DNA from: Alicyclobacillus sp. SO9
Lineage (GTDB): Bacteria > Bacillota > Bacilli > Alicyclobacillales > Alicyclobacillaceae
Assembly: GCF_016406125.1 (NCBI RefSeq)
Contig: NZ_CP066339.1
Location: forward strand, 2,914,001-2,978,000
Reading direction: 5' to 3'
DNA length: 64,000 nt
Of this stretch, positions 17,682 through 24,911 are shown piece by piece (position 1 is the stretch's first letter; each line of letters starts with the position of its first letter). The notes under the pieces were generated by a model, which worked only from the letters and a program-made list of their open reading frames with translations, made no database searches and was not told where the DNA came from. A program made the position numbers and the translations under genes.

Positions 17682-18512
17682 TTACTCCTTGCGCATCAAC
17701 ATTCTTTCACTTCGACTTGTCCCGTTTCTCCAAAACAGCCAGATGAAGACGACTAGGAATACAGCATAGACTGACAGCTGCAACGTGGTGGGGCTGTCAG
17801 CGTAACCAAGAAAGGAGTGAAGAATATCCCCAAAAGTGCTGTCTTCGTTTAACAGAGATGCAGTGTTCCACACTGCAGGCTGATGTGGAAGCCAACCCGT
17901 TTCCTGAAAACTTTCAACACCGTTCGCAAGGAGGCCTGCGGCAAACAGCACCAACAGGGTCCCCATTATGTTAAAGAAGTACTTCAAATTAATGCGGCGT
18001 CCCAAAATATAAATGAAATAGCTGAGAACTAAACCAGACACAGTGCCCATCACGCCACCTACTGCCAGGTACAGTGGTCTTGCGTGAAACGCAATGGCAA
18101 TCATAAAGACGACAGTTTCCAGACCTTCACGTCCGACTGTGATAAATGCAATCAGTGCAATGGCGAACACAGAGCCCGACTGAATCGCCGCATCCATCTT
18201 AGAGTGCAACTCCGACTTCAAATGTCGTCCTTGCTTTTTCATCCACAACGTCATATAGGTCAAAACCACACTGGCGACAAAGTATGTAACACCTTCAATC
18301 CGTGCCTGTAGTACCGACCCGTCGTAACTGTGCAAAGTAAAAAAAACAATGATGCCTCCGCCAACGGCAACCAGCACTGCGGCAGCGACACCCAGCCACA
18401 CATCCTTAAATGCGTCGCGCCGCCCTATTTGTTGTAGATACGCCAGCATGATAGAGCAAATCATCGAAGCTTCCAGAGATTCACGAAAGAAGATCAAAAG
18501 GGAGCCGAGCAC
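17682..18512 (-). CDS. FTR1-family high-affinity iron permease
   Basis: An integral membrane permease of the FTR1/EfeU type, about 276 residues with seven hydrophobic helices. Both REXXE iron-binding motifs are seen: RESLE in helix 1 (10-14) and REGLE in helix 4 (128-132). The GTG at 18512 is preferred since GGGGTGA lies 5 bases upstream and the protein then begins LGSLLIFFRESLE like its relatives; a GTG three codons earlier is possible. No EfeO or EfeB partner is adjacent, so it may work with a distant ferroxidase or alone. A strong promoter and a 7-1-7 palindrome precede it. Confidence 0.92.
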   Translation of the reverse strand: MLGSLLIFFRESLEASMICSIMLAYLQQIGRRDAFKDVWLGVAAAVLVAVGGGIIVFFTLHSYDGSVLQARIEGVTYFVASVVLTYMTLWMKKQGRHLKSELHSKMDAAIQSGSVFAIALIAFITVGREGLETVVFMIAIAFHARPLYLAVGGVMGTVSGLVLSYFIYILGRRINLKYFFNIMGTLLVLFAAGLLANGVESFQETGWLPHQPAVWNTASLLNEDSTFGDILHSFLGYADSPTTLQLSVYAVFLVVFIWLFWRNGTSRSERMLMRKE

Positions 18513-18536
18513 CCAATTCACCCCGCTTTTAAATCA

Positions 18537-20166: not shown

Positions 20167-20361
20167 TTATCGAACGTTTGCAGCTTGCAGACCTTTTGGT
20201 CCTTCCACAATGTCAAATGTCACGCGTTGACCTTCATCAAGGGTCTTAAATCCATCGTTTTGGATAGCGCTATAATGTACAAATACATCGTCTCCGCCTT
20301 CAACTTCAATGAATCCAAAGCCTTTTTCGGGGTTGAACCACTTAACCGTACCTTCGTTCAT
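20167..20361 (-). CDS. Cold-shock protein (CspA family)
   Basis: A 64-residue single-domain RNA chaperone of the CspA family. RNP1 KGFGFIE (13-19) and RNP2 VFVHY (26-30) carry the aromatic residues that stack on single-stranded nucleic acid. AGGAGG lies 8 bases before the ATG. A consensus promoter about 150 bases upstream leaves a long leader with a stable stem (20432-20476), as is usual for cold-shock mRNAs, and a strong terminator follows the stop. Confidence 0.97.
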
Positions 20362-20431
20362 TCAAAATGCCTCCTGGTGCTCATCAAGCACAATAATTGT
20401 TCATACCGCACTCACCTACTGCAATATATAA

Positions 20432-20476
20432 AGCCGTTCATTTCTGCTCCCATAGAAGCTTCGAAAAGAACGGCTT
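20432..20476 (-). promoter_or_regulatory. Stem in the csp 5' leader
   Basis: Arms AAGCCGTTC (20432-20440) and GAACGGCTT (20468-20476) pair across a 27-nt loop in the untranslated leader of the cold-shock mRNA. Known csp leaders switch structure with temperature; this stem is a candidate part of such a switch, but no second fold was worked out. Confidence 0.55.
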
Positions 20477-20512
20477 ACTATGTTAACCAGCATGATAGGG
20501 TTGAACATCCTT

Positions 20513-20541
20513 ATTATACCCAAAGCAGAAGCAAAAGTCAA
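20513..20541 (-). promoter_or_regulatory. SigA-type promoter of the cold-shock gene
   Basis: On the minus strand, TTGACT (20541-20536), a 17-bp spacer and perfect TATAAT (20518-20513). The predicted start near 20506 gives a leader of about 145 bases. The promoter begins only 8 bases after the upstream oxidoreductase stop. Confidence 0.85.
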
Positions 20542-20548
20542 TCCACAC

Positions 20549-21679
20549 TTAAATTCCGCCAGTGATTGCCGCCTCGTTAGAATACCCTCTTTCTTCCCAA
20601 TAGCCCTCAAGTGGTTTGTCGCTGAATGCAATCCTTCCCACCCATTTAATAGACTTGTACCCGTACTTCTTAGGAACCACCAGCCGGAGTGGATAACCCT
20701 GCTTGGTTTTTAAGGGTTGCCCGTTCATGCGAACCGCAAGCATGACTGTTGGGTCGAGCGCGTCAGCCACAGATAATGACTCTGTGTATACGCCATCCAA
20801 AGAATAAAAATGTACGAATTTGGCAGCCGGCATCGGATGCACCAGATTTGCGACAGAGTGAACGCGAACGCCTTCCCATTTTACATTGGCAACACTCCAC
20901 CCTGTGACGCAGTGAAAGTCAGCAGTCTCATGTACATGGGCAAGGGCCATAACCTGGCCCAAAGACAGACTTACTGGCCGTTCCACAAGTCCATCAATTT
21001 TCAACTGATACGTCGACTCACCGACGGCAGGGTAACTCCCTGTCACAGTATAAAAAGCAGGGAACCCAGGTGATATGGAACTTGCTGTTGAGTTAGACAC
21101 ATTCGCCGTCAACTTCCCAATCTGAGCAATCGGCTCAAATACCGTAATTATCACGGTGCTGGCCGTGCCAGCACCTAGCCACTTTAGAAACATGCGTCTG
21201 TCTGGATTGACACGAGGGTTCACTCCCGATGGAGATGGTCTATAGCTGAGAGATTTGTACACTGCGTGAATCAAAATCCACGCCGCGAAACTATATGAGA
21301 CATAGCCGTGCCAACGAAAGGCAATGCTGCTCCAAGTGGTTGGAAACCAGTGTTGACGACAAACCAACAATCCTGTGACAACAATAGAGACACCGAATAG
21401 CACCGGGAACAACCAGTCGAGACGTCGGACCCGTTTAGCTGCCTCCCATCTTATTAGGAGAGGAGTGAGTAGGGTGATTGCAAAAGTGAGACCCAGAAAA
21501 ATGTGAACGTAGTAGATAAACGGTAAATATGGGATTAGCACAGTATGCATCGGCGGCCAGAAGAGGGCTATTCCACTCGCAAGAAGGAGCCCAAATGAGA
21601 CAATGGTGTAGTAGTGCAACCATACCATTCGTCTTGACCATTTCCCGTGCTTCAACCAGGTCCGCCCCATCGTCCTCAC
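20549..21679 (-). CDS. Fusion of a b-type cytochrome membrane domain to an MsrP/YedY-like molybdopterin domain
   Basis: A 376-residue two-part protein. Residues 1-150 form about four to five hydrophobic helices with spaced His residues (LHYY, YVHIFLG, RWHGYVS, LIHAVYK), suiting heme b. At about 161-171 a twin-arginine-like motif DRRMFLKWLG precedes a further hydrophobic segment. Residues about 200-370 resemble the sulfite-oxidase fold, with the Mo-ligand Cys in DFHCVTGWSV and the C-terminal KYGYKSIKWV segment typical of MsrP/YedY. MsrP reduces protein methionine sulfoxide outside the cytoplasm, taking electrons from the separate membrane heme protein MsrQ; here both parts are one chain. It follows a Met-repeat lipoprotein gene by 39 bases. 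Confidence 0.85.
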   Translation of the reverse strand: MRTMGRTWLKHGKWSRRMVWLHYYTIVSFGLLLASGIALFWPPMHTVLIPYLPFIYYVHIFLGLTFAITLLTPLLIRWEAAKRVRRLDWLFPVLFGVSIVVTGLLVCRQHWFPTTWSSIAFRWHGYVSYSFAAWILIHAVYKSLSYRPSPSGVNPRVNPDRRMFLKWLGAGTASTVIITVFEPIAQIGKLTANVSNSTASSISPGFPAFYTVTGSYPAVGESTYQLKIDGLVERPVSLSLGQVMALAHVHETADFHCVTGWSVANVKWEGVRVHSVANLVHPMPAAKFVHFYSLDGVYTESLSVADALDPTVMLAVRMNGQPLKTKQGYPLRLVVPKKYGYKSIKWVGRIAFSDKPLEGYWEERGYSNEAAITGGI

Positions 21680-21718
21680 GCCTTTCTTGGTGGCCTGTCT
21701 GTCGAAAACGGCGCCATC

Positions 21719-22102
21719 CTAGCTGCTCGTGTTGCTCATGTTGCCTGTGCTATTGCTCATACTGCCTGTGCCGTTGCTCATACTGCCTGTGCCGTTGCTC
21801 ATACTGCCTGTGCTGTTGCTCATGTTGCCTGTGCCGTTGCTCATACTGCCTGTGCCGTTGCTCATACCGCCTGTGCCGTTGCTCGTGTTGCCTGTGCCGT
21901 TACTCATGTTCCCTGTGCCGTTGCTCATACCGCCTGTGCCGTTGCTCGTGTTGCCTGTGCCGTTACTCATGTTCCCTGTGCCGTTGCTCATGTTTGTCGA
22001 ATGACTTCCCCCGCCGGCGGCGGGATGACCACAGCCAACGACTCCAAACATCGTTGCTGTCACTGCAAGAATAGTAACAAATTGCCAAACGCTCTTTTTC
22101 AC
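21719..22102 (-). CDS. Methionine-repeat lipoprotein
   Basis: A 127-residue lipoprotein. The signal peptide ends in a GVVGC lipobox (Cys at about 24). After HPAAGGG the mature part is about 13 tandem heptads of the type N/S/G-M-S-N-G-T-G, of which 11 carry Met and two carry Thr (ATG to ACG). It is otherwise Ser, Asn, Gly and Thr, with no charge. The start is GTG behind GGAGG at 7 bases. The next gene downstream is the MsrP-like fusion, so a role as an oxidant-scavenging Met substrate is attractive; a plain spacer or surface peptide is the alternative. Confidence 0.8.
   Translation of the reverse strand: MKKSVWQFVTILAVTATMFGVVGCGHPAAGGGSHSTNMSNGTGNMSNGTGNTSNGTGGMSNGTGNMSNGTGNTSNGTGGMSNGTGSMSNGTGNMSNSTGSMSNGTGSMSNGTGSMSNSTGNMSNTSS
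21725..22000 (-). repeat. 21-bp tandem repeat array
   Basis: About 13 copies of a 21-bp unit encode the heptads of the lipoprotein. Units fall in blocks: the order Met-Thr-Gly/Met recurs twice in a row, which suggests block duplication by slippage. Copy number is likely to vary between strains. Confidence 0.85.
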
Positions 22103-22173
22103 AAAAAAACCTCCCTATACATACAGTGATGGACCACTACCGTTTTGGACACTTCGGTCTGAGTCGGCCTGAC

Positions 22174-22228
22174 GGTCTCTCAGCCGCCATGCGAGCGGCA
22201 CTCGTGACCGCGAGCATAGGTTGAGACC
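22174..22228 (-). ncRNA. Candidate structured leader (three-way junction)
   Basis: Pairings GGTCTC/GAGACC (22174-22179 with 22223-22228), GCCGC/GCGGC (22183-22187 with 22195-22199) and CTCG/CGAG (22201-22204 with 22211-22214) form a compact three-way junction 70-130 bases upstream of the lipoprotein gene. I could not match it to a known riboswitch class. It could instead be the terminator of the kinase transcript or a DNA-level element. Confidence 0.35.
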
Positions 22229-22330
22229 CCGTCTTCCAAGTGGTTCACTAAGTATGTTAAGGAGGAAAAGTTACATCCTTAGAACTAAATTCTTTCATAA
22301 ACCTTACAAATTGCATTATTGTTACGATTC

Positions 22331-23392
22331 TCAGAGGCCGCTTACCGGCAGCGTGAACCAGAACTCACTCCCGGAGGATCCATTATTTCTCGGTCGCACT
22401 CCAATCCGTCCTCCGTGCAACTCCACAAGTGACTTTGCCACCGCCAGCCCGAGACCCGCTCCACCGGAATTGCGACTCCGCGATTTGTCTACTCTGTAGA
22501 ACCTCTCGAAAATCTGTTCCGTTTCACTACTCTGGATGCCTGGACCTTCGTCGCGAATCCTGACTTCTACTTCCCTTGTTTCGTCGAGAAAAATGGCTGT
22601 GACCTCAATCTCGGATTGCCTAGGCGCGTATTGAATCGCATTGTCCAGCAGGTTGTGAATGACGCGTGAAATTTTGGCGGGCATCATCTGCAGGGGCGGA
22701 ACTTCGTCTTCCACTGACACCAGCACACGAATCTGCTTCTCTTGCAATTTCACGGAGGAACTCTCAAGCAGCCCTACCAAAATCTCGTCAACATAGCCCG
22801 TTTCCGGATCGTACGCCTGTTGACCAGCTTCGACCTTGGAGAGTTCAAACAAGTCGTCTATCAGTAAGCTGAGTCTTCTGGCTTCTCGATGAATCGTATT
22901 TAAATATCGTGTAGAGGTCTCATGGTCATCAATGACACCGTCTTCGAGGGCTTCGACGAAGGCTTGAATCGAGGCAATAGGAGTTCGTAAATCGTGCGAT
23001 ACGTTTGCGACCAGATGTCTGCGTGTACGTTCCAATGCCTCCAATTGAAGCACATTCTCATGCATGCGCTCTTTCATTTCATGAACCGATCTCGTTAGTT
23101 GACGCACTTCGACAGGCCCCTTAGCAGGTGCGTCATTTGGTGTACCCCCCTGAGACATGTCCGCTCCCTCTTCGTCGGCGAATTCAATCAGGCGATTGAC
23201 CGAATTGATAATAGGTTTAGTCATCAACCAGTAGGCTAGTGTAGAAAGCACGCCTGCCACTACGGCAATGATAGTTAACAGACCTGCCTGTTTCAGGTTT
23301 AGCAGCATCTGAATATAACTGTAGACAACCGCGGCCACAATAATTAAGGTGCTGGCGACGTTAATCAAAAGAAGCTCTGTGCGAAGCTTCAT
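22331..23392 (-). CDS. Sensor histidine kinase
   Basis: A 353-residue membrane histidine kinase. Two hydrophobic helices (about 8-30 and 37-58) are separated by only about six residues, so there is almost no external sensor. A HAMP-like stretch leads to the phospho-acceptor His133 in SHDLRTP, then HNLLDNAIQYAP (N box), DEGPGI (G1) and GAGLGLAV (G2). Its start overlaps the response-regulator stop by 4 bases. The tiny loop is typical of intramembrane-sensing kinases responding to envelope stress. The Met-repeat lipoprotein gene begins 229 bases downstream. Confidence 0.93.
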   Translation of the reverse strand: MKLRTELLLINVASTLIIVAAVVYSYIQMLLNLKQAGLLTIIAVVAGVLSTLAYWLMTKPIINSVNRLIEFADEEGADMSQGGTPNDAPAKGPVEVRQLTRSVHEMKERMHENVLQLEALERTRRHLVANVSHDLRTPIASIQAFVEALEDGVIDDHETSTRYLNTIHREARRLSLLIDDLFELSKVEAGQQAYDPETGYVDEILVGLLESSSVKLQEKQIRVLVSVEDEVPPLQMMPAKISRVIHNLLDNAIQYAPRQSEIEVTAIFLDETREVEVRIRDEGPGIQSSETEQIFERFYRVDKSRSRNSGGAGLGLAVAKSLVELHGGRIGVRPRNNGSSGSEFWFTLPVSGL

Positions 23393-24117
23393 ACTCTGCG
23401 CTTCCTTGTTTTGGGCTCGAACCTATAGCCAATTCCCCAAACGGTCTGCAAAAGCTCAGGACGGGATGGATTTGTTTCGATTTTCTCACGAAGTCGACGC
23501 ATTAGTACTGTGACCGCGCTGGTGTCGGCCGGTGTGTCGATACCCCAAACGAGATTTAGCAGTTGACCCTTGGAGAACACCTGTCCGGGTCGCTTTGCCA
23601 TGAGCAACAATACGTCGAATTCCTTCACTGTTAGGTCTGCGGCTTGATTGGATATTTCCACTCTGCGCCGCGCAGGATCAATCATCATGTCATCAAAGTG
23701 AAGGGTATCGTCGTGCTGCTCACTTGTCTCTGCAACACCGTCTCGGTTTACACGCCGTAAAATGTTATGCACGCGAAGCATTAGTTCCCGCGGAGAAAAC
23801 GGCTTTGTCAGATAATCGTCCGCCCCCAGAGTCAATCCCATGACCCTGTCACGCTCATCGCCTCGCGCAGTCAGCATCATAACGGGGACGTCAGACTCAT
23901 GGCGTATATCCTGACAAATTTGATAGCCATCTTTTCCTGGCAACATCACATCCAAAACTACCAGGTCTGGAGAAGAACGGAGAAACTCCTCCCACCCAAC
24001 TTGTCCATCGGCAGCGAGCACCACTTCAAAACCGTCACGCTCCATATAGCGACGACAAACATCTCTGATGTTTTCATCATCCTCGACTAACAGAATTCTC
24101 CGCGTTTCCCGCATCAC
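23389..24117 (-). CDS. OmpR-family response regulator
   Basis: A 242-residue two-domain regulator. The receiver domain (about 7-120) has the acidic pair in VEDDEN, phospho-acceptor Asp56 in VVLDVMLPG and Lys in TKPFSPREL. The C-terminal winged helix (about 140-235) ends in VWGIGYRF. GGAGG lies 6 bases before the ATG at 24114, with a GTG one codon earlier. It is the first gene of the pair with the kinase, and a possible regulator of the downstream lipoprotein-oxidoreductase genes. Confidence 0.94.
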   Translation of the reverse strand: MMRETRRILLVEDDENIRDVCRRYMERDGFEVVLAADGQVGWEEFLRSSPDLVVLDVMLPGKDGYQICQDIRHESDVPVMMLTARGDERDRVMGLTLGADDYLTKPFSPRELMLRVHNILRRVNRDGVAETSEQHDDTLHFDDMMIDPARRRVEISNQAADLTVKEFDVLLLMAKRPGQVFSKGQLLNLVWGIDTPADTSAVTVLMRRLREKIETNPSRPELLQTVWGIGYRFEPKTRKRRV

Positions 24118-24209
24118 GGGCCTCCATTCTCAGGCAATACCGCGAACCACTCAAATGACGAACCAGCGAACACAAGTCCGGATTCATGCCACGAAGCCCA
24201 CAATCGACC

Positions 24210-24911
24210 TCAACTTCCTTCCGAACTTAAGCTAGCGTCCAAAGCATACTGAACATGAATGGATGTGGTATCAAAAATGGGCAGATTAACATGTTGCTGT
24301 TCCAGAATCATAGCGAGCTCAGTACAGCCTAAAATCACACCCTCGATGCCCTTGTTTTCATTCCGTAAAATGATGCTCAGTAGTTTCTCACGAGACGGTT
24401 CTGTGACAACTCCAAGGCACAACTCTTCATAAATAACGTCATTGACAGTCAATATATCTTCAGACGCTGGAATAACAATTTCGAGTCCCAGTTGTTCAAG
24501 GTGATTTCGCAGAAATGGATGCTCCAGCGTGTACCGAGTCCCGAGCAGAAGCACCTTCTTGATATTCGATGCATGAACTGCCTTTGCCGTAGCATCTCCA
24601 ATGTGTAAAACGGGAATAGAAACCGCCTTTGCTACCGCTTGCGCGACAATGTGCATTGTGTTTGCGGCAATCAGAATTGAGTCTGCACCAGCCGCTTCCA
24701 GACGTCTTGCTATGTCGACAAAAATCTCAGCCGCACGGGCCCAATCCCCTTGACTTTGCAATTCTTCAATCTCTGCAAAGTCAACGCTCCACAATAAAAG
24801 CTTGGCCGAGTGAAGTCCACCCAACCGCGCCTTCACGCCTTCGTTTAGTTCACTGTAGTAGTGAGATGTGGATTCCCAACTTGTCCCGCCAATCATTCCG
24901 ATTGTTTTCAT
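24210..24911 (-). CDS. Aspartate/glutamate racemase family protein (RacX/YgeA type)
   Basis: A 233-residue cofactor-independent racemase of the Asp/Glu superfamily. The two catalytic-thiol regions are seen: IAANTMH, where the usual first Cys is replaced by Thr as in the YgeA/RacX group, and LGCTELAMI with the second Cys. The opening MIGGTSWESTSHYY is typical of this group. Such enzymes make D-amino acids for wall or biofilm remodelling. AAGGTGA sits 6 bases before the ATG. The stop of the upstream kinase-like gene lies 6 bases away, so the two are co-transcribed. Confidence 0.9.
   Translation of the reverse strand: MKTIGMIGGTSWESTSHYYSELNEGVKARLGGLHSAKLLLWSVDFAEIEELQSQGDWARAAEIFVDIARRLEAAGADSILIAANTMHIVAQAVAKAVSIPVLHIGDATAKAVHASNIKKVLLLGTRYTLEHPFLRNHLEQLGLEIVIPASEDILTVNDVIYEELCLGVVTEPSREKLLSIILRNENKGIEGVILGCTELAMILEQQHVNLPIFDTTSIHVQYALDASLSSEGS

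Follow-up and report, generated by a model that had tools for sequence, protein, structure and literature searches.

In Alicyclobacillus sp. SO9, a two-component system, a lipoprotein built of methionine-bearing heptads and a one-piece membrane-bound molybdoenzyme are encoded one behind the other, in the order response regulator, histidine kinase, lipoprotein, enzyme. The whole stretch analysed, 64,000 nucleotides (64 kb) and hereafter referred to as the window, is part of a 5.29 Mb genome whose family takes in named Alicyclobacillus species, and all window features described below lie on its minus strand. By analogy with Gram-negative systems, the reading which we prefer, and to which we give about an even chance, is that the Met residues of the lipoprotein serve as a sacrificial sink which an MsrP-like reductase recharges, the two working like MrpX or BcrX with MsrPQ. 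The two-component system would sense envelope stress and, via a conserved box behind the kinase gene, switch on the lipoprotein and the enzyme, which are presumably co-transcribed. On the outer side of the membrane, oxidants such as peroxide or hypochlorite-like compounds would turn the exposed Met residues of the surface-anchored lipoprotein into Met sulfoxide. Electrons drawn from the quinone pool would pass by way of the enzyme's di-haem b561/FdnI-like domain to its MsrP-like Mo site, where Met sulfoxide would be reduced back, so that the lipoprotein would act as a rechargeable sink.

Somewhat short of even, in our estimate, is the case for a Gram-positive "methionine battery", in which oxidants, or copper together with oxygen, discharge a membrane-anchored Met-repeat lipoprotein, a single polypeptide recharges it from quinol, and a two-component system of its own is in control. 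If this were true, it would provide the first natural substrate for enzymes of the Sco3746 type, and, with the neighbouring gene suggesting a substrate, the function of this fusion would be open to direct test. It would also mean that a monoderm uses a Met-sink strategy in which anchor, repeat and electron-delivery module are all different, and would suggest repeated invention of rechargeable Met sinks.

The preliminary description of this locus, made from the sequence, had pointed to a proteobacterial Met-rich peptide that works with a YedY, and Gram-negative precedents exist. One of them, MrpX-YedYZ of Azospira, was reportedly described by Melnyk et al. in 2015 and is taken here from citing papers. 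According to the accessible text on the Brucella BcrXQP system, a Met-rich peptide with MXKDX repeats occurs with MsrP and MsrQ; HOCl induces the system, and an ECF sigma factor is its direct activator (PMC8315932). In uropathogenic E. coli, again from the accessible text, OrhKR directly activates the reductase genes of C3566-C3568, of which C3568 is the peptide, in response to peroxide (PMC8550376). The window resembles these systems in combining a Met-rich peptide, an adjacent MsrP-type molybdoenzyme and a regulator, which in the case of OrhKR is also a two-component system. In contrast to their separate MsrP and MsrQ, it encodes a one-piece enzyme with a b561/FdnI-type half in a Gram-positive host, and its [NSG]MSNGTG heptads, unlike the BcrX repeats, are without Lys or Asp and are carried on a lipoprotein. 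Since its repeat belongs to a different family and an MsrQ half is lacking, we do not regard it as a member of the Gram-negative systems, though going by its anatomy it would work like them. A search of open-licence full texts found no earlier description of the exact pair, to which the preliminary description likewise knew of none, and no paper with both "methionine-rich" and "Alicyclobacillus".

The repeat lipoprotein and its regulatory genes

The lipoprotein gene (21719..22102), defined from the list of open reading frames and the DNA, has a GTG start preceded by AGGGAGG and encodes 127 aa. A signal peptide and lipobox (22031..22102) can be read from the sequence, with the lipobox Cys (VVG-C) as residue 24. 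The mature protein would comprise 104 aa including 11 Met, and 99 of these 104 residues are Gly, Ser, Asn, Thr, Met or Cys. Residues 37-127 (21722..21994) form 13 heptads of the type [N/S/G]-[M/T]-S-N-[G/S]-T-G, the final one being NMSNTSS; Met is present in 11 of them and is replaced by Thr in the other two. The about 13 heptads, 11 with Met, first reported in this lipoprotein are therefore confirmed with an exact span, as is the position of the enzyme gene 39 bases downstream on the same strand, measured from the lipoprotein stop to a GTG at 21679. This gap becomes 48 bases if translation starts at the ATG at 21670, which suits the N-termini of relatives better. The two Thr heptads belong to a stretch of three heptads that is present twice, and a single change followed by duplication may therefore explain them.

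The heptad array is the sole tandem repeat reported by Tandem Repeats Finder in the window (21731-21994, period 21, 12.6 copies, score 367). The lipoprotein has no Pfam or NCBIfam family match at E<=1 and its leader shows no unusual RNA fold (z -0.65). A sigma-70 scan of positions 20300-24300 found no site on the minus strand in the interval from the kinase gene to the lipoprotein gene.

The two regulatory genes, which the preliminary description did not include, encode an OmpR-type response regulator (23389..24117; PF00072, PF00486) and a histidine kinase (22331..23392; PF00512, PF02518; also followed by ortholog search), in which two membrane helices and a very short outside loop can be recognised by eye. 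Behind the kinase gene is a conserved 20-bp box, TGTAAGRTTNRTGAAAGAAW (22289..22308), likewise absent from the preliminary description. It is probably a response-regulator site, since it includes two TGWAAG half-sites 11 bases apart to which the regulator would bind. A search allowing up to two mismatches gave one exact site each in the window genome (G000), A. acidiphilus (G001), A. contaminans (G016) and genome G031, always behind the kinase at this locus; the pattern was built from these four sites, so that their recovery is by construction and the result is that there is no other close match. One extra site with two mismatches occurs in the window genome, and G042 has no site with up to two mismatches. 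Within the window, one site with up to three mismatches was found where 0.10 were expected.

The fused enzyme

The enzyme gene (20549..21679) encodes 376 aa. An AlphaFold2 model (mean pLDDT 82.3, pTM 0.77) predicts four membrane helices (residues 15-39, 48-74, 85-106 and 113-142; 21251..21634), a fifth helix after a twin-arginine pair (21194..21199) and then the Mo domain. This corresponds to the Oxidored_molyb domain PF00174 (20597..21037; 145.7 bits, cut-off 24) and carries the Mo-ligand Cys in DFHCVTGW (20909..20911), so that the YedY/MsrP-like domain and its Cys in the preliminary description are both borne out. In a 37-row alignment of the enzyme, the Cys and its CVTGW motif, the twin Arg and three His are invariant (37/37 rows). 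These His are H58 in helix 2 (21503..21505) and, in helix 4, H123 (21308..21310) and H137 (21266..21268). A fourth, H21 in helix 1 (21614..21616), is conserved in all 33 rows which reach its column, the other 4 having gaps. Numbers are those of alignment A1, one below the full-protein numbers. All four His are haem-ligand candidates. The twin Arg may belong to an internal Tat signal; PF10518 gives only 13.6 bits on the enzyme, below its cut-off, and a TatC gene is present in the window genome.

The membrane half is b561/FdnI-like and not MsrQ-like. A profile of 23 membrane parts found FdnI in the PDB at 2.3e-5, and the four invariant His align to FdnI His which we take to be haem ligands. Fold comparison by VIA-align matched the membrane part to E. 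coli superoxide oxidase (Z 11.6), hydrogenase-1 cytochrome b (11.2) and FdnI (10.4), matches which by themselves would be weak evidence in the case of a helical bundle. PF01292 gives 13.2 bits for the window enzyme and 26.3 for a paralogue, both below the cut-off of 30.1. There is no match at E<=1 to the ferric-reductase-type family PF01794 of MsrQ, for which E. coli MsrQ as a control scores 60.5 bits; this, together with the b561/FdnI-type matches, sets the membrane half apart from MsrQ. The preliminary description was thus right in assigning a His-bearing membrane domain, which has four membrane His, and wrong in its MsrQ label. Comparison by hhalign of A1 with the single sequence of E. coli MsrQ (probability 0.3%) and with that of the b561 protein YodB (0.9%) was not decisive in either case.

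By fold and sequence the Mo domain is about equally near MsrP and SorA/SoxC. Identity to E. coli MsrP is 28% over 187 aligned positions. The best NCBIfam match is the MsrP model NF003767 at 95.1 bits, under its cut-off of 207, followed by SorA (77.2) and SoxC (70.0). VIA-align places SoxC (Z 21.8) and SorA (21.3) slightly above MsrP (20.1) and a PDB profile search puts SorA (2.9e-22) just ahead of MsrP (4.5e-22), whereas Foldseek ranks MsrP first. Such scores, together with the fact that no substrate was tested for the Sco3746 type in the accessible parts of the two papers that name it, are what an enzyme acting as another S- or N-oxide reductase, or as a sulfite-type dehydrogenase, could produce, and the lipoprotein would then serve something else. 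The active site argues against this alternative. Arg55 of SorA is its catalytic/substrate arginine. The corresponding column is occupied by Y, F, L, P or I, and never by Arg, in 37/37 rows, and both the window enzyme and E. coli MsrP have F-Y where SorA has Arg55-Tyr. The preceding column has Arg in 5/37 rows, so that an alignment shift is possible in that subgroup. The Mo motif is CVTGW in the window enzyme and CVEAW in E. coli MsrP. Judged by the Cys motif and the absent SorA Arg, the Mo site leans to MsrP, and we consider a different enzyme activity improbable, the least probable of the alternatives weighed here.

Besides the CVxxW Mo motif in a PF00174 domain, the window enzyme has in common with E. 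coli MsrPQ that two-component genes are nearby: msrPQ lies near hprRS, with hiuH between. The closest described architecture is that of Streptomyces Sco3746, which the accessible text presents as a five-TM haem b/MoCo fusion with homologues noted in firmicutes, characterised by conserved His to hold two haems, a twin-Arg pair ahead of helix 5 and a C-terminal MoCo domain (eLife 2017, PMC5449189). The window enzyme shares all these features, so the one-piece type of enzyme is one already described. It differs in that three conserved His are given for the Sco3746 type in that text and four are found in our A1/A2 alignments. The window has in addition a Met-repeat partner and a two-component system, neither of which the accessible part of that paper mentions for Sco3746.

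Some other features of the enzyme and its surroundings may be recorded. Just ahead of the invariant YGYKSIKW, the window enzyme has Lys (20666-20668) at a position which is Met in 36/37 aligned rows. The window genome includes a second fused enzyme, which is 53% identical and has no adjoining lipoprotein; an MsrB gene is found about 4 kb off on the other strand with genes between, a weak sign (L217; G000:C1:4394662-4395765 and 4399654-4400001). An FTR1-family iron permease gene (17682-18521; 173.5 bits) lies about 2 kb beyond the enzyme.

Occurrence of the pair in the family

The lipoprotein-enzyme pair is rare in this family. A full-length enzyme, defined by a match covering both halves, is present in 24 of the 41 family genomes searched, and a Met-repeat frame occurs within 700 bases upstream of it in only two, the window genome and A. 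contaminans. The upstream sequence is short at some loci (less than 700 bases in L004, L038 and L067; 296 in L085 and in A. contaminans). Counted by locus, such a frame precedes the enzyme at one of 40 loci, that of A. contaminans; these 40 are the loci, among 80 found, whose match reaches the membrane half, partial or cut ones having been left out. A looser measure, four Met in 24 codons upstream, applies to 6/40 loci and 8/24 genomes, with true repeats confined to A. contaminans and the window, which was examined in addition to the 40 loci. As the other 22 genomes with the enzyme have no Met-repeat frame in these 700 bases, the lipoprotein appears as an optional partner. The co-occurrence expected in the preliminary description is therefore not absent from relatives but nearly so. 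Its interpretation is partly supported, in that a Met-repeat lipobox protein is paired with an enzyme of MsrP-like motif.

An orthologous kinase is intact in 4/41 family genomes (E<=1e-80), the same four in which the box is found. It directly precedes the enzyme in A. acidiphilus and G031, precedes lipoprotein and enzyme in the window, and is at a contig end in A. contaminans. In A. acidiphilus and G031 the kinase, the box and the enzyme are present but the lipoprotein gene is missing from the interval, and the enzyme must accordingly have a role that does not depend on the lipoprotein. In A. pomorum (L007 3688-6083) the start of the kinase frame leads straight into that of the enzyme, and the regulator is broken into two frames; the locus looks as though the intervening part had been deleted, or as though it had decayed.

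The A. contaminans locus was found through the kinase search. A scan for Met-rich open reading frames round 113 loci, in which 43 passed and five had a lipobox-like and signal-like start, missed it because its frame is cut by the contig end, and an earlier upstream scan of the 40 loci had also missed it. Three of those five frames were kept by eye (the window copy L083, L147 and L162), and L056 and L028 were dropped as probable overlapping frames.

A. contaminans belongs to genus grouping g3, and the window genome to g1. On its contig C87, regulator, kinase and box are followed by MKGKVLSCCMALCAFGLIMAVTACGHSDSGMVDQSNMNGAAQNSMDNSMDNSM, which runs to the edge of the contig; the mature part of this lipobox protein starts with CGH and carries NSM(D) units. 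At the end of contig C62 a frame reads through four SMSN units into ETGH and a stop, with the enzyme 46 bases further on. Because place and composition match, we infer that the two ends, read separately, are parts of one gene, which would give a second pairing of kinase, lipoprotein and enzyme in this order. Met is present in all seven units seen, and recurs every four residues; the SMSN tetrads differ from the window heptad but have the core S-M-S-N in common with it. That Met is kept while the unit changes is the best sign here that Met matters, although repeat homogenisation could mimic it. The preliminary description had singled out a repeat without Met in relatives as telling against its proposal; the A. 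contaminans repeat has Met, and only the outer end of the C62 frame, which reads SLSN, departs from this. That end abuts what looks to us like an insertion-sequence end, and the strain may accordingly have a disrupted gene, unless the break stems from the assembly.

These observations bear on a second alternative, in which tandem duplication has produced a near-neutral spacer of low complexity, the place of this lipoprotein being incidental and the enzyme acting on envelope proteins generally. Many short tandem repeats, for example of 7 or 12 bases, occur in these Alicyclobacillaceae genomes among the matches listed, and homogenisation without selection on each unit could have kept the Met, which counts against the sink reading. 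The two Thr heptads and the rarity of the pair are also in its favour, as is an Asn/Gly-repeat lipoprotein in G020 (L122 1483-1761), which has a single Met behind its lipobox and is not beside the enzyme. Against a spacer, a lipobox and Met units are found in A. contaminans by the same kinase and enzyme, although the enzyme is only 56-57% identical to that of the window. We judge a spacer rather improbable, and prefer the rechargeable sink.

Relatives of the lipoprotein and the possible involvement of copper

A search of the 41 genomes with the lipoprotein gave, besides the window, one convincing match, in A. acidiphilus (54%). The other matches listed range from 18 to 46% identity, and most of them fall within long reading frames; among five places inspected (L114, L122, L120, L135 and L148), L114 alone was kept. 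The A. acidiphilus protein is a Met-heptad lipoprotein of 76 aa encoded away from the enzyme locus (L147 15516-15746), and genome G042 encodes another of 62 aa (L162 9241-9429). Both end in NGTMDMGNQTNSTK, share MDMSNGTMN and have MxM motifs. Both lie near thioredoxin-like genes, and in G042 a PF02683 (DsbD/CcdA-type) membrane protein was confirmed; neither adjoins the fused enzyme, which counts against the sink reading. The A. acidiphilus island includes a heavy-metal P-type ATPase, a PF02583 metal-sensitive repressor and two multicopper-oxidase genes, and the G042 surroundings include a Cys-rich DUF326 protein. With no further close box match in A. acidiphilus and none in G042, these lipoproteins seem not to share the box.

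The copper surroundings, which had no place in the preliminary description, provide the main rival to the sink reading. The lipoprotein might bind Cu(I) or Ag(I) at the surface, the enzyme keeping its Met reduced for metal binding. The accessible text on E. coli MsrPQ gives a model for this, since the system is copper-induced through CusSR and keeps its proposed substrate, CusF, reduced (PMC9302797). As in our proposal, the Met of an extracytoplasmic protein would be restored by an MsrP enzyme, but CusF serves a Gram-negative efflux pump as its metallochaperone and the window protein is a repeat lipoprotein. The MxM motifs and metal genes of the two closest Met-heptad lipoproteins, and the Met at every fourth residue in A. 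contaminans, would suit metal binding. In the window, however, Met residues are single and seven apart, with no MxM, and no copper gene was recognised by eye among the listed open reading frames (Pfam was run on six neighbours); the A. acidiphilus lipoprotein, moreover, is without a copy of the box. We regard metal binding as unlikely, though less so than the other two alternatives. Equally, the copper and thioredoxin surroundings would fit a general connection between Met-repeat lipoproteins and redox repair outside the cytoplasm.

Pattern searches were carried out more widely. An NGT pattern gave 13 places in 7/398 genomes and led to the G042 relative; those in G209, G324, G371 and G411 (four) read NGTW.MTNGT. 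A tighter heptad pattern matched in the window genome alone (1/59). With patterns that place Met at each fourth or seventh codon, the matches listed are dominated by simple repeats and by other reading frames. Heptads are also found in proteins of quite another kind, such as a long protein of FDQ[MV]DAR units in G007 (L135 716-2026).
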